Shown here: in pieces, positions 16,984 to 31,765 of the stretch
How positions within the stretch are numbered: position 1 is the first letter of the stretch
How the letters are laid out: each line of letters starts with the position of its first letter
DNA from: Nitrososphaeraceae archaeon
Lineage (GTDB): Archaea; Thermoproteota; Nitrososphaeria; Nitrososphaerales; Nitrososphaeraceae
Length of the DNA: 33,092 nucleotides
Assembly: GCA_025923455.1 (NCBI GenBank)
Contig: JAICFW010000070.1
Location: 1-33,092 of the forward strand
Direction of reading: 5' to 3'
Notes under the pieces: generated by a model
Databases searched by the model: none
Told to the model about the DNA's origin: nothing
The model's input: only the letters and a program-made list of their open reading frames with translations
Position numbers and translations under genes: made by a program

Positions 16984-17004
16984 CTAAAATTGGTACTAGT
17001 TGCA

Positions 17005-18396
17005 ATGAGTAGTTTCAAGCACGCTAGGACTGCCTTATTTGGTTTAACTTTTGTATTGATAATGTTCATGTCCAATGGACTTTTTGCTGCCTTTGGTCAA
17101 TCTACAAATTTTGAAGGTCCCTTTGTCGGTGTTGCAATGAAGGGTGGATATGTGGATCAAAAAGAAAACAGAGAAGATACTCCATTACCTCCTGCAACTT
17201 ATTTTGATGAGAGTTTCAGGTTACTTAGTGAAGCAGGACTAAATCATGTAAGATTCTTGTTCTACTGGGAAGCATATGAGAAAAATCCACAAGGATTTAT
17301 GAATGAACTAGAACAGGTGGCAAACGCAGCCGACAAATATGGTATTAAAGTTATTTATGACAATCATCAATGGCATACATCTTCTTGGCTTGAAAAGAGG
17401 GGAACTGGCTTTCCAACTGCCCTTTTTGCCAATAATTCACAGCTATACCCAATGAACAGTGGTGGTAAGGAAGGTGAACCGGTAGCAAAGCTTTGGTGGT
17501 CTAATTTCTGGGATGGTACTATCAAGGATGGACAGGGAAATGATGCATGGACTCTGTTAGCTGACTTTTATAAGAAAGTAGTTGCCGCAGTCGATAGTCA
17601 TGAGAGCACTTTGGGATACGAAATTTTGAGTGAACCTCACGTAGAAGCTGCTGACCAATGGGAAAAAATTGGAAGCTTTAACTCATTTATGACTGACGAA
17701 CTACGCTCGGTGACTCAGAAAATTATTGTTTATAGTATGAATGTCCCTGTCGATCTAAACGGACCCATACAATTAACAGCAGAAAACCTTGCCGAGATGG
17801 CTCCTGCAAATAAGGAAAATGTATGGTTTAAAATAAGCGTCTATGGAATTCCAGACAGAGATCAATATCAACAAGAGAGATTTGACCTTTTCTTACAAAC
17901 TCGTGAATTGACCGGCATTCCACTTTATATCGGTGAATGGAACAATGTCGTAAGAACTCAAGTCAATGGCGTATTTCAGCTAGATCCTCAAAAGAGCGGT
18001 CTAAACCAGCAAATTGCAGATACTATGCTTGAAGCATTTAAAAATGAAAATATAACTGCCTCGGCTTTCTGGAAATGGGATTACCAAGATGCAGATACTG
18101 CTAGCTTCAACTTGATTTCTCCTCAAAACGCCACATTGACGCAAAATCAAAACGCCACATTAACTCCAACAGAATACTACACATTTCTCAAGAATTCAGT
18201 AGCCAATGTTTATGGTGATTTATCCACTTCTACATCTGGCTCATCTTCAGAAACTACTTCTGACACAACATCTGACACAACATCTGACACAACATCTGAC
18301 ACAACATCTGACACAACATCTGACACAACATCTGATGCAACTTCGGAAGAAACTTCTGAAGCCACGTCCGAAACTAACTCTACTGAAGAGAATTAG
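17005..18396 (+). CDS. Secreted GH5-like glycoside hydrolase (cellulase/mannanase superfamily) with TSDT-repeat tail
   Basis: From ATG 17005 the 463-residue protein starts with a signal peptide (basic FKHARTA, then a hydrophobic core, cleavage near AFG-QS at residue 31). The catalytic domain (about 40-395) has a (beta/alpha)8 GH5 layout: LNHVRFLFYWEAYE, VIYDNHQWH (residues 117-124), then GYEILSEPHVE with the probable acid/base Glu210, and LYIGEWNN with the probable nucleophile Glu311. The usual NEP motif reads SEP here. The tail is a Ser/Thr/Asp-rich, probably O-glycosylated linker with seven TSD-type repeats. There is no carbohydrate-binding module or membrane anchor. It would act outside the cell on beta-glucans, mannans or its own exopolysaccharide. 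The stop overlaps the stop of the convergent ABC ATPase. Confidence 0.85.
   Translation: MSSFKHARTALFGLTFVLIMFMSNGLFAAFGQSTNFEGPFVGVAMKGGYVDQKENREDTPLPPATYFDESFRLLSEAGLNHVRFLFYWEAYEKNPQGFMNELEQVANAADKYGIKVIYDNHQWHTSSWLEKRGTGFPTALFANNSQLYPMNSGGKEGEPVAKLWWSNFWDGTIKDGQGNDAWTLLADFYKKVVAAVDSHESTLGYEILSEPHVEAADQWEKIGSFNSFMTDELRSVTQKIIVYSMNVPVDLNGPIQLTAENLAEMAPANKENVWFKISVYGIPDRDQYQQERFDLFLQTRELTGIPLYIGEWNNVVRTQVNGVFQLDPQKSGLNQQIADTMLEAFKNENITASAFWKWDYQDADTASFNLISPQNATLTQNQNATLTPTEYYTFLKNSVANVYGDLSTSTSGSSSETTSDTTSDTTSDTTSDTTSDTTSDTTSDATSEETSEATSETNSTEEN
18256..18339. repeat. Seven tandem 12-bp repeats encoding TSDT in the GH5 tail
   Basis: The unit ACATCTGACACA recurs in register with codons, five exact copies flanked by one variant copy at each end. 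It encodes Thr-Ser-Asp-Thr. Near-identical units indicate recent expansion by slippage; copy number may vary between strains. Confidence 0.9.
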
Positions 18397-28403: not shown

Positions 28404-28967
28404 ATGCCAGAAACTAAGCCCATTGTTAGCATAGAAAATGTTGTTGCTTCTGCGACTGTCAATCAAACTGTAAACCTTAATTTAATTACTCAAATATTCC
28501 CTGATGTCGAATACCATCCGGATCAGTTTCCAGGACTTGTATTTAGACTGAAATCTCCTAAAACTGCAACATTGATTTTCAGTTCCGGAAAAATGGTATG
28601 CACTGGCGCAAAATCCGAAGAACAGGCGATTAAGGCAGTAAAGAATGTGGTCCAAAAACTCAGAAAAGGAAGTATTCCAATTGAAAATGAACCTCAGATA
28701 GAAATACAAAATATTGTTGCATCTGCAAGTTTAGGTGGCAAAATACATTTAGAACTGGCAGCTAGAGTATTGCCTCGCAGTATGTATGAGCCAGAACAAT
28801 TTCCGGGTCTTATCCACAGGATGTTGGATCCTAAAACTGTGATACTCCTATTTGCTAGCGGAAAGTTGGTCTGTACTGGGGCTAAGAAAGAGTCCGAAGT
28901 ATATAGAGCTGTTCACAATTTACATGATCTTCTAGAAGAGAAGAGTCTAATGATTTATGAAGGTTAA
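28404..28967 (+). CDS. tbp: TATA-box binding protein (TBP)
   Basis: TBP nucleates archaeal transcription initiation with TFB. The 187-residue protein consists of two pseudo-symmetric repeats (about 8-90 and 98-180). The intercalating Phe pairs are kept in both: FPGLVFRL with TLIFSSGKMVCTGAK, and FPGLIHRM with ILLFASGKLVCTGAK. The His in FPGLIHRM replaces the usual aromatic Tyr, a mild variation. The tail is short (EEKSLMIYEG) and moderately acidic, as in other archaeal TBPs. It is followed 41 bases later by a LarA-like gene on the same strand. Confidence 0.97.
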   Translation: MPETKPIVSIENVVASATVNQTVNLNLITQIFPDVEYHPDQFPGLVFRLKSPKTATLIFSSGKMVCTGAKSEEQAIKAVKNVVQKLRKGSIPIENEPQIEIQNIVASASLGGKIHLELAARVLPRSMYEPEQFPGLIHRMLDPKTVILLFASGKLVCTGAKKESEVYRAVHNLHDLLEEKSLMIYEG

Positions 28968-29008: not shown

Positions 29009-30118
29009 ATGCCTGAACTATGGCTAAATTATGGCAGCACTGATATAATAGTAGATTTAAAGGTAGAGAATCTTTCACTTATTGAGAATTCAAAATTTGA
29101 CATACTTGATAGCGAAAACCTAGATCAACAAATTAAGTCTATACAAATCGGAGATGCTACTACACTTGTACCTCTCGATGCTTCGAATTCAACTGTTCAA
29201 CTTGTTTCTAAACTAATTGTCCTTGCGGAAGCAAAAGGGATTAAGTTATCCATAGAATCAACTCCAAAAGCAAGAAAGCAGTTATCAAACAAATTGCAAA
29301 ACCAAAATATTGGTAACATAGATAATAATGGTGAACATTTACAAACCCTTAAAAAAGATAAAAATACTATATTTGTTTCAAAAACTAACATCGATCCTTT
29401 TTTTGGTTATAGTGGAACTCCTGTCACCCTCTTGAGGGAATTTGAACAGGACAAAATGAATGAAGCATTCAAGTCGAGAACAGATAACTTTCCTCATCCT
29501 GCTTTAATTGGTCCACCGATTGAAGTTGCAAACAAATTATGTGAAGGCATGAACGCAATGTCTGTTGAAATTACTTCCAATAATAGTGGAATTAACAACA
29601 TCTTTTATGGCGAAATACTCCAGTCTTTTCATAACTCAATCAAGAATCTCGAAAGCCTTGCGATAGAAGATGTACAGGAATTAAAATCTCTTGTAGTGGG
29701 AACGAATACTGATACGAATTCGAGTTCAACTTTGTCAAGTTCTTTGAGTTTATTGTGGAATTCGGTGAATGTTCTTAAGAGAAATGCCATTGTAGTTATG
29801 GTTTCGGAAAATAACAAAGGATTTGGGGCTAAGGCATTAGAGAAATTTGCATACGGAGAAATAAAACTAGAAGACTACGAGAATTCTACCTACCTCGAGG
29901 GGTTGGAACATATTATGTTTATCAATGAATTAAGAGAGAAATATAATGTTGCAATTCTTTCTTCGTTACCAAAATATTATTTAAAGGACATATTTGGACT
30001 TAGAGTATTTTCGAATATGCAGGAAGCCGCCGAAAAAATACTTGAGATGAATGGAAAAAGTCATAGGATTTCAATTATCCAAGATCCAAATACTGCAATA
30101 TTCAAAAAACATGGCTAA
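29009..30118 (+). CDS. LarA-like (DUF2088 fold) protein lacking lactate racemase active-site residues
   Basis: The 369-residue product has the outline of the LarA family, whose nickel-pincer enzyme racemises lactate. The start MPELWLNYG resembles the LarA LPYG start. The segment IFVSKTNIDPFFGYSGTPVTLLREF (residues 121-145) aligns by eye with the LarA 'PHxxaGxSGGxK' loop, but the His is Phe and the cofactor-linked Lys is Val139. The C-terminal domain (IVVMVSENNKGFGAKALEKF, later NVAILSSLPKYYLKDIFG) matches the LarA C-terminal fold. Asn/Ser-rich insertions occur near residues 95-115 and 232-248. I infer a non-racemase relative, role unknown. It is close behind tbp and may be co-transcribed. Confidence 0.6.
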   Translation: MPELWLNYGSTDIIVDLKVENLSLIENSKFDILDSENLDQQIKSIQIGDATTLVPLDASNSTVQLVSKLIVLAEAKGIKLSIESTPKARKQLSNKLQNQNIGNIDNNGEHLQTLKKDKNTIFVSKTNIDPFFGYSGTPVTLLREFEQDKMNEAFKSRTDNFPHPALIGPPIEVANKLCEGMNAMSVEITSNNSGINNIFYGEILQSFHNSIKNLESLAIEDVQELKSLVVGTNTDTNSSSTLSSSLSLLWNSVNVLKRNAIVVMVSENNKGFGAKALEKFAYGEIKLEDYENSTYLEGLEHIMFINELREKYNVAILSSLPKYYLKDIFGLRVFSNMQEAAEKILEMNGKSHRISIIQDPNTAIFKKHG

Positions 30119-30191: not shown

Positions 30192-30689
30192 TTGCAGAGC
30201 TGCTTACGAAAAAATGAAGATTATATCTTCTACAGATGTGGTATGGAGAACCTACATTCTGTAATAGAGATAAATTTAAACTCACTTCCCGAACACTATA
30301 CAGAGTATTTTTTTGAATCAATTCTAAAAGAATTACCTGAATCATTCATTGTTGCAGAATTTGGTGGAAAAATCATTGGATATGTAATGTGCAAGATTGA
30401 ATTTGGATTCTCTAATTTCAGGAAATTAGGCTTTGTAAAGAAAGGACATGTAGTTTCCATTGCGATTATGGAAGAACACCGAGGAAAGAGGGTTGGTACC
30501 ATTTTAATGGAGGAAGCGATAAATGGACTTGTATCAAGGCGAACAGAAGAAGTATATCTCGAGGTAAGAGTGAGCAATTCTGCGGCAATAAAAATGTATG
30601 AGAAATTAAATTTTAAGATGAGATCGAGACTGAAAACATACTACAGAGATGGAGAAGATGCATTCTTGATGGCATTAGAATTGTCTTGA
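30192..30689 (+). CDS. GNAT family N-acetyltransferase (RimI/Ard1-like)
   Basis: The 165-residue protein has the acetyl-CoA-binding GNAT fold. Motif A is VVSIAIMEEHRGKRVGTILMEEAI, with the pyrophosphate-binding loop RGKRVG (residues 97-102). Motif B is VYLEVRVSNSAAIKMYEKLNFK, the L-E-V-R-x-S-N-x-A-x-x-x-Y-x-x-x-G/NF pattern found in N-alpha-acetyltransferases such as RimI and archaeal Ard1. It probably acetylates protein N-termini; archaea usually have one such general enzyme. TTG 30192 is supported by an AT-rich box at 30161-30170. The downstream small membrane gene starts at once. Confidence 0.9.
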   Translation: MQSCLRKNEDYIFYRCGMENLHSVIEINLNSLPEHYTEYFFESILKELPESFIVAEFGGKIIGYVMCKIEFGFSNFRKLGFVKKGHVVSIAIMEEHRGKRVGTILMEEAINGLVSRRTEEVYLEVRVSNSAAIKMYEKLNFKMRSRLKTYYRDGEDAFLMALELS

Positions 30690-30922: not shown

Positions 30923-31765
30923 TTAAGTTACCATTACATCAGATACGATTTGATAAAATCTAGGACCAACCTCTCTCACGACTCTAACATTTCTAATGGT
31001 GTGGTCAAATTTACTAAACGATTCTGAAGTATCCATAATTCCATTCTGTATGGCGTTTTTCTTATTGTCAGCTCCTACATGACAAAAATAGTGTATCGTG
31101 CCACTACCGTTTTCAAGAGAACTTACGGCAGCATCTACAAAATCTTTTGCTTTTTCCGGTAAGGGCATCAACACCCGTTTTGCAATTCCCTTAAGGCCTT
31201 TATGAATTTCCTGCTCGGCATCACCAAGAACAGGAAACACATTCCCTGTCAATTTATTTATCTCAATATTCTGTCTACACATGTCAATGGCTATTGGGTT
31301 TGAATCAATAGAGTAAACTTTGGCCGAATTGTTGTAGCGAGATATTATGATGGAAAACGTTCCTACACCTCCGAACATATTCACAATCACTTCATTAGGC
31401 TCAGTCAATTTCGCAATCCTTAACCGTTCGGTTGACAGTCTGGGTGAAAAGTAAGTATTGATTACATCTACTTTGAAAGTGCATCCATGTTCCTTATACA
31501 CAGTAATTGGACTATTTTCTCCAGATATCAATTCCAATTTCCGCAATCTGTAATCCCCCTCAATCGCTGATACTTGACAAAATACCGATTTTACTGGCCT
31601 AATTTCCTCAATCAGGGCATCTGCAATCAATTTTCTTTTAGAGGTTAATGAGTCTGGGATTTTGATTATCGCAATAGTTCCAATGATATCAAATGATGAT
31701 GAAAGTTTTTCAAGCTCTGTTCTATCAAGCCTTTCTTGCAATACCTCCTTAAGCATTTTTGTCAT
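30923..31765 (-). CDS. trm5: tRNA (guanine-N1)-methyltransferase, Trm5 family
   Basis: Trm5 methylates G37 next to the anticodon, which prevents frameshifting; the archaeal family also includes Taw2-like members of the wyosine pathway. The 280-residue protein contains the D2 region (YRLRKLELISGE, then YKEHGCTFKVDVINTYFSPRLSTERLRIAKL), which is diagnostic of the class, and the class I SAM motif VNMFGGVGTFSI. The usual NLP motif after strand 4 appears as LMPLPEKA. It lacks the longer N-terminal D1 domain of some archaeal Trm5 enzymes, so assignment to Trm5b-like is tentative. It follows the ABCE1 gene by 13 bases and is probably in one operon with it. Confidence 0.88.
   Translation of the reverse strand: MTKMLKEVLQERLDRTELEKLSSSFDIIGTIAIIKIPDSLTSKRKLIADALIEEIRPVKSVFCQVSAIEGDYRLRKLELISGENSPITVYKEHGCTFKVDVINTYFSPRLSTERLRIAKLTEPNEVIVNMFGGVGTFSIIISRYNNSAKVYSIDSNPIAIDMCRQNIEINKLTGNVFPVLGDAEQEIHKGLKGIAKRVLMPLPEKAKDFVDAAVSSLENGSGTIHYFCHVGADNKKNAIQNGIMDTSESFSKFDHTIRNVRVVREVGPRFYQIVSDVMVT

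Follow-up and report, generated by a model that had tools for sequence, protein, structure and literature searches.

A near-universal LarA homologue of Nitrososphaerales with the canonical nickel-pincer residues lost and a probably re-tailored ligand pocket

LARA, a 369-residue protein encoded in the window (by which we mean the whole analysed stretch of 33,092 nucleotides from a Nitrososphaeraceae archaeon), is probably an ancient, vertically inherited derivative of the malate-racemase-like branch of archaeal LarA, one that works independently of the nickel-pincer nucleotide (NPN) and has a re-tailored ligand pocket. NPN is the cofactor of lactate racemase. The features in the window on which the analysis draws are as follows.

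28404-28967, + strand: TATA-box-binding protein (TBP) ORF, upstream of LARA, with a gap of 41 nt
29009-30118, + strand: LARA, a degenerate LarA-superfamily protein with a full-length two-domain LarA fold, 369 aa, ATG start
29009-29071, + strand: N-terminal signature of LARA, MPE[IL]WLxYG...ENL, residues 1-21
29387-29437, + strand: LARA loop around IDPFFGYSGTPVTLLR, residues 127-143, equivalent to LarA HFFAGFSGGRKS
29393-29395, + strand: codon of Asp129 (His174 position), within the 127-143 loop
29423-29425, + strand: codon of Val139 (position of the NPN-linked Lys184), within the 127-143 loop
29729-29761, + strand: LARA residues 241-251, TLSSSLSLLWN, LarA helix 11 region
29798-29836, + strand: C-domain loop of LARA, MVSENNKGFGAKA, residues 264-276, containing Glu267
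29888-29920, + strand: LARA residues 294-304, TYLEGLEHIMF, LarA helix 14 (substrate) region
30192-30689, + strand: RimI-type N-acetyltransferase, downstream neighbour, above the TIGR01575 cut-off
30923-31765, - strand: neighbouring Trm5/Taw-like tRNA G37 methyltransferase family protein

LarA homology and active-site residues

Taken singly, the LARA sequence falls below every curated LarA cut-off, scoring 12.9 bits with Pfam LarA_C (cut-off 25) and 34 bits (E 1e-8; cut-off 500) with the NCBIfam model for the LarAH6 malate racemase (MAR), and Pfam Lar_N found no match in the window protein or elsewhere in its own genome. A single-sequence search of the PDB returned nothing useful, and a family profile, made from the alignment of 66 relatives, was required. 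Foremost among the solved structures matched by this profile was Mar2 (PDB ID: 6d6z; hmmsearch, E 7.7e-23), and LarA and Mar2 entries were the sole matches with E < 0.1 (7.7e-23 to 7e-9), including the T. thermosaccharolyticum LarA (PDB ID: 2yjg), which aligned over nearly the whole length (E 6.7e-14). Moreover, the LarAH6 model is matched individually by all 66 relatives, and an hhalign comparison of the family with 19 canonical archaeal LarAs extended over the full length (371 columns, E 2.7e-30). The AlphaFold2 model of LARA (pLDDT 91.1, pTM 0.90) gave 17 Foldseek hits in the PDB at E <= 0.001, all of them LarA, Mar2 or LarA-like, with an E of 4.6e-18 and a TM-score of up to 0.79. The LarA resemblance noticed in the sequence-only reading thus holds by family profile, by hhalign and by fold match, and on these alignments and this model LARA is a genuine full-length LarA homologue with a mainly shortened N-domain, and no look-alike. 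A Glycos_transf_1 match (E 0.012) was dismissed, as it lies below the cut-off and probably reflects a shared Rossmann-like fold.

NPN is bound in LarA by R75, K184, and H200, with D72, H108, H174, and K298 as the catalytic residues (PMC7583248). Canonical archaeal LarAs keep D72, R75, H108, H174, K184, H200, and Q295 in 13 of 13 sequences and K298 in 12 of the 13 (the other being K298R). Across the 66 LARAs, none of the NPN-binding and catalytic residues is kept as such, so that the description of the window protein as degenerate extends to its whole family. The K184 position is occupied by Thr (38), Val (10), or Ser (8), and the earlier assignment of this position to Val139 in the window protein was correct. 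The H200 position has mostly Phe (32) or Tyr (18), the H108 position is mostly hydrophobic with no conserved His, the K298 position is mostly Asn (24) or Ser (13; Ser247 in the window protein), and the R75 position is Lys (20), Arg (10), or Asn (7; Asn60 in the window protein), while D72 is kept in 27 of the 66. At the H174 position, aligning the loops without a gap (GFHYYAGYGGGRKSVL above NIDPFFGYSGTPVTLL) gives Asp in 56 and Asn in six relatives, followed by Pro in 55 of the 66, and places His174 of LarA at Asp129. The sequence-only reading, in which the adjacent His had become Phe, needs amending here; it corresponds to a HMMER alignment in which a gap puts His174 at residue 131, which is Phe131.

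Among the 43 LARAs of ammonia oxidizers, no displaced invariant Lys or His was found, the best-kept being Lys353 (35 of 43, otherwise Arg; far away in sequence) and His301 (29 of 43). With K184, H200, and the His pair lost, LARA would not carry out Ni-pincer hydride racemization; judged from the alignments, neither a covalent NPN tether at the canonical Lys nor a two-His hydride mechanism is open to this protein, while non-covalent binding of NPN or some other ligand would be compatible with its sequence.

Mar2 (LarAH6; PDB ID: 6d6z/7s91) is the best profile match and shares the AECxxGLG C-domain loop and the general fold, but it keeps the equivalents of R75, K184, H200, D72, H108, H174, and K298 (PMC7583248), none of which is found as such in LARA, and LARA is about 60 residues shorter. 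Likewise, L. plantarum LarA (PDB ID: 5huq, 6c1w, 8ezh) has the full-length fold in common with LARA (the TM-score being the above-mentioned 0.79 at most), though LARA is without its NPN-linked Lys, Ni ligand His, and catalytic His pair. In the single-histidine LarAH subfamily (Blautia wexlerae and Streptococcus plurextorum LarA, PDB ID: 9q3j), His174 is also replaced, by Asn where LARA has Asp, but the other catalytic His (H108) and the NPN-linked Lys, both lost in LARA, are kept; one member was loaded with NPN (PMC12611868), and the fold match to LARA is weaker (TM about 0.6).

The degenerate group was almost certainly already noticed in 2020 as LarAH group 12, a LarA-related group of LARA's lineage with unconserved catalytic and NPN-binding residues, whose members were doubted as LarA homologues (PMC7583248). 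Desguin et al. (2020, PMC7583248) denatured and refolded LarAH12 from Candidatus Nitrososphaera gargensis and saw no activity in any of seven NPN-dependent assays. Since LARA is the sole LarA-superfamily protein in the complete Nitrososphaeraceae genomes tested, it very probably corresponds to this group, an identity inferred from the published description. What differs is that the fold and profile evidence makes LARA a true LarA homologue, and we did not find its ubiquity, gene order, and co-occurrence with the cofactor pathway described in PMC7583248.

Distribution, descent and the ligand pocket

A LARA homologue is present in 57 of 61 relatives and in 125 of the 150 genomes that sample the class, including nearly every Nitrososphaerales genome, and in these samples it is nearly always single copy. 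Its dN/dS within the genus is 0.14-0.20. This near-universal, single-copy occurrence and this dN/dS identify LARA as a real gene and no chance ORF. The corresponding values are 0.005-0.024 for TBP and about 0.03 in most pairs for RimI; LARA is under purifying selection, yet evolves much faster than its neighbour genes. A pattern based on MPE[IL]WLxYG matched 246 stretches in genome contigs, 239 of which encode relatives; the N-terminal VWLPYGkTEV of canonical archaeal LarAs is related to it.

In a LarA-superfamily tree (a quick search, with SH-aLRT support only), the LARAs of Nitrososphaeria form one clade (SH-aLRT 99), which nests within a 36-member clade of degenerate LarAs from several Thermoproteota lineages (SH-aLRT 98), in which long branches leave the inner order uncertain. 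The canonical archaeal VWLPYGKTEV LarAs fall apart from this clade. The branch of degenerate LarAs to which LARA belongs is older and lies within Thermoproteota, with RimI and an M50 protease as linked genes. Lys184 has also been lost in the loops of genomes G209 (DPYAGYSGGRAGVL, locus L147) and G223 (HPFEGFSGGRDMIL, locus L145), and, as both fall outside the 36-member clade, LarA probably degenerated more than once. The loop of G329 (FDPVWGYTGGVKTLL, locus L142) keeps Lys184 with Asp in place of His174. These and other LarA relatives from Thermoproteota whose NPN loops are altered in part (L142, L145, L147, L148-L150, and L158) can serve as intermediates between canonical and degenerate forms.

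The new near-invariant residues of LARA are E3, W5, Y8, E20, N21, W250, N251, E267, Y295, E300, and Y324, of which E267 is part of the AECxxGLGS loop common to canonical relatives. In the helix 11 region, Ser247 stands in place of Lys298, and Trp250-Asn251 are new and near-invariant; in the helix 14 region, Tyr295, Gly298, and Glu300 are near-invariant; and the C-domain loop, with the consensus AECxxGLGSxA, is shared with canonical LarAs and malate racemases and has been retained. Because conserved new residues and the AECxxGLGS loop coincide with LarA substrate sites, we propose that LARA binds a ligand in its pocket. As judged by alignment to the LarA regions, the inter-domain cleft would be retained but re-tailored, with Asp129 (His174 site), Trp250-Asn251 (helix 11), and Glu300 (helix 14) joining the old AECxxGLGS loop, all apparently situated where LarA recognises its substrate. 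A small polar metabolite would be bound in this cleft, and LARA might either convert it through acid/base chemistry around Asp129, Glu267, and Glu300, cofactor-free or metal-assisted, or serve as a ligand-bound housekeeping factor.

Alternatively, LARA could be a pseudo-enzyme that catalyses nothing and instead serves the RimI/M50-protease/TBP neighbourhood as a scaffold or stability partner, conserved at its surface and not in a pocket. The complete absence of the canonical catalytic residues is consistent with this, as are the position of LARA among housekeeping genes in several classes and a dN/dS that in most pairs is about five times that of RimI and over ten times that of TBP. We nevertheless find this reading unlikely, because the best-conserved columns fall within the N-terminal strand and the LarA substrate regions and the catalytic positions carry polar residues, a pattern that resembles a pocket more than a surface. 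The overlap of conserved columns with the substrate regions has a Fisher p of 2e-13, which is descriptive only, as the regions were picked after the data had been seen, and the conserved columns may be structural instead of lining a pocket. The sequence-only reading of a dead or repurposed LarA fold stands in that the canonical residues are lost and the protein is conserved enough for repurposing; its proposed tie to TBP is another matter, taken up below.

The NPN pathway and its possible client

No lar cofactor genes lie within the window, as had been noticed; for the genome as a whole, however, the statement does not hold, as three genes above the NCBI equivalog cut-offs are found on other contigs.

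Contig C100:4770-5957: larC
Contig C100:6050-6790: larE
Contig C85:8592-9233: larB

The premise of a missing cofactor pathway is therefore overturned, and larB, larC, and larE are in fact almost universal in the order: of the 150 class genomes, 112 have LarC and 111 each have LarB and LarE above the cut-off, nearly all within the order. They occur in a conserved block in which larB-malate dehydrogenase is divergent from larC-larE-cysteine desulfurase (L123 and L124 in the genome of the window, the larB side reaching C85:8592-10289; L125-L130 and L133 elsewhere). Canonical Lar_N was detected in eight of the 150 genomes (seven over the cut-off), with G173 as the only case within the order. Denser sampling revealed canonical LarA in other families of the order (G039, G041, G042, G047, G049, and G056) and none in the genomes of families f1, f2, f3, and f9, so that, G173 excepted, it is missing from the sampled ammonia-oxidizer families. 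LARA is the sole LarA-superfamily protein found in complete genomes such as G022, G034, G102, G098, G044, G037, and G012. The reverse pattern was seen in family f18 (G061, G064, G067, G071, and G075; L152-L154), where canonical Lar_N is present, the searches detected neither LarB nor LarC, and LarE appears below the cut-off only; at L152 at least, the loop EPHFFAGFSGGYKSVLPG with its Lys is kept.

These data raise a second alternative, namely that the protein using NPN in ammonia-oxidizing archaea is LARA. Its reshaped site would hold NPN, or a LarB/LarE intermediate, without a covalent bond, and the protein would either catalyse a non-canonical hydride or other reaction or deliver the cofactor to another protein. 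The near-universal LarB, LarC, and LarE, present also in its own genome, speak for such a role, together with the upkeep of the pathway implied by the larB-mdh/larC-larE-cysteine desulfurase cluster, the absence of canonical LarA from the sampled ammonia-oxidizer families except for G173, and the sole LarA-superfamily status of LARA in complete genomes (G022, G034, G102, and G098). That larB, larC, and larE are kept with LARA as the only such protein is odd if LARA is NPN-independent, and this is the counterpoint to our preferred reading. Motif conservation points the same way, being lower where LarC is missing: of 33 columns conserved in ammonia oxidizers, the LARAs of LarC-less genomes keep 15-30 and those of LarC-positive non-ammonia-oxidizers 26-32, the columns having been chosen on LarC-positive ammonia oxidizers. 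With one to three independent contrasts, this erosion is no proof, and descent explains it equally well.

Against this alternative, Lys184, His200, Arg75 as an invariant, His108, and His174 are gone with no invariant Lys or His as a substitute, related LARAs persist where LarC is absent (genomes of f10, f18, f20, f22, f29, f32, f52, and f62), LARA lies outside the lar cluster, and LarAH12 was inactive with NPN. Moreover, other users exist, as about 15% of genomes, e.g. of cyanobacteria, have larBCE and make NPN without any LarA (PMC11796402), Haloferax volcanii being a suspected archaeal case (PMC8305020). On balance, we consider it unlikely that LARA is an NPN user. Its strongest form, in which LARA is the missing client of the near-universal pathway, binding NPN or a precursor without a Lys tether for a new and important reaction, seems to us more improbable still; if true, nearly every ammonia-oxidizing archaeon would depend on a nickel cofactor that has yet to be reported from these organisms. 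A search of the literature for NPN in ammonia oxidizers of this kind turned up no paper.

Gene order and meaning for ammonia-oxidizing archaea

In Nitrososphaerales, the gene order is signal peptidase (forward), TBP (forward), pyrE (reverse), LARA (forward), M50 protease (reverse), and RimI (forward), followed by the Trm5-like gene or a DNA ligase, and this signal peptidase-TBP-pyrE-LARA-M50-RimI arrangement looks ancestral in the order. In most of the order, the divergent pyrE (orotate phosphoribosyltransferase) is the immediate neighbour of LARA; it is missing from this place in the window, and it also flanks the distant intermediate locus L142. Elsewhere in the window, a GH5 cellulase-family glycoside hydrolase is encoded at 16990-18396 on the + strand (Pfam E 3e-14), in a genome of an ammonia-oxidizer family.

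The sequence-only reading had placed LARA directly behind TBP, which it is (41 nt, same strand), and had suggested a function tied to this transcription factor. Yet, of the 21 loci at order and class level that have TBP upstream (L031-L070), 19 carry a divergent pyrE in between, and the co-oriented pair with no gene between is found mainly in the genus and family of the window. TBP was not found near LARA in families f20 and f22 or in other Thermoproteota classes; the short LARA relatives of other Thermoproteota lineages (L134-L141) mostly have an M50 (site-2-type) protease and/or RimI alongside. The tight pairing is thus local, and synteny of TBP with a LarA-like gene does not extend across lineages. 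Gene order across the order and in other lineages suggests an old housekeeping set and not a transcription operon, and a TBP-LARA operon was rejected on the same comparison. That LARA senses a nucleotide-type cofactor in connection with transcription is accordingly very improbable: although the two genes are adjacent in the window and neighbours in most Nitrososphaerales, pyrE separates them or other partners stand beside LARA as described, and no DNA-binding domain was found in LARA. Its link with TBP is a bystander effect.

Two papers (PMC8397731; PMC10579303) have inferred that these archaea use lactate, on the strength of lineage-specific 'lactate racemase' clusters. As proteins were clustered at 35% identity in PMC8397731, a fast-evolving family like LARA would be split, and these inferences may rest on LARA divided into lineage-specific clusters, though canonical LarA exists in some genomes.

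A near-universal protein of ammonia oxidizers, whose standing as a LarA had been doubted, thus proves to derive from LarA while keeping none of the known NPN residues. More interesting in its consequences than the degeneracy of LARA is that ammonia-oxidizing archaea nearly all maintain the NPN pathway and yet, with rare exceptions, have no canonical client for it. With larB, larC, and larE near-universal and canonical LarA rarely present, either LARA or another protein would be the nickel-pincer cofactor user in some of Earth's most abundant nitrifiers.
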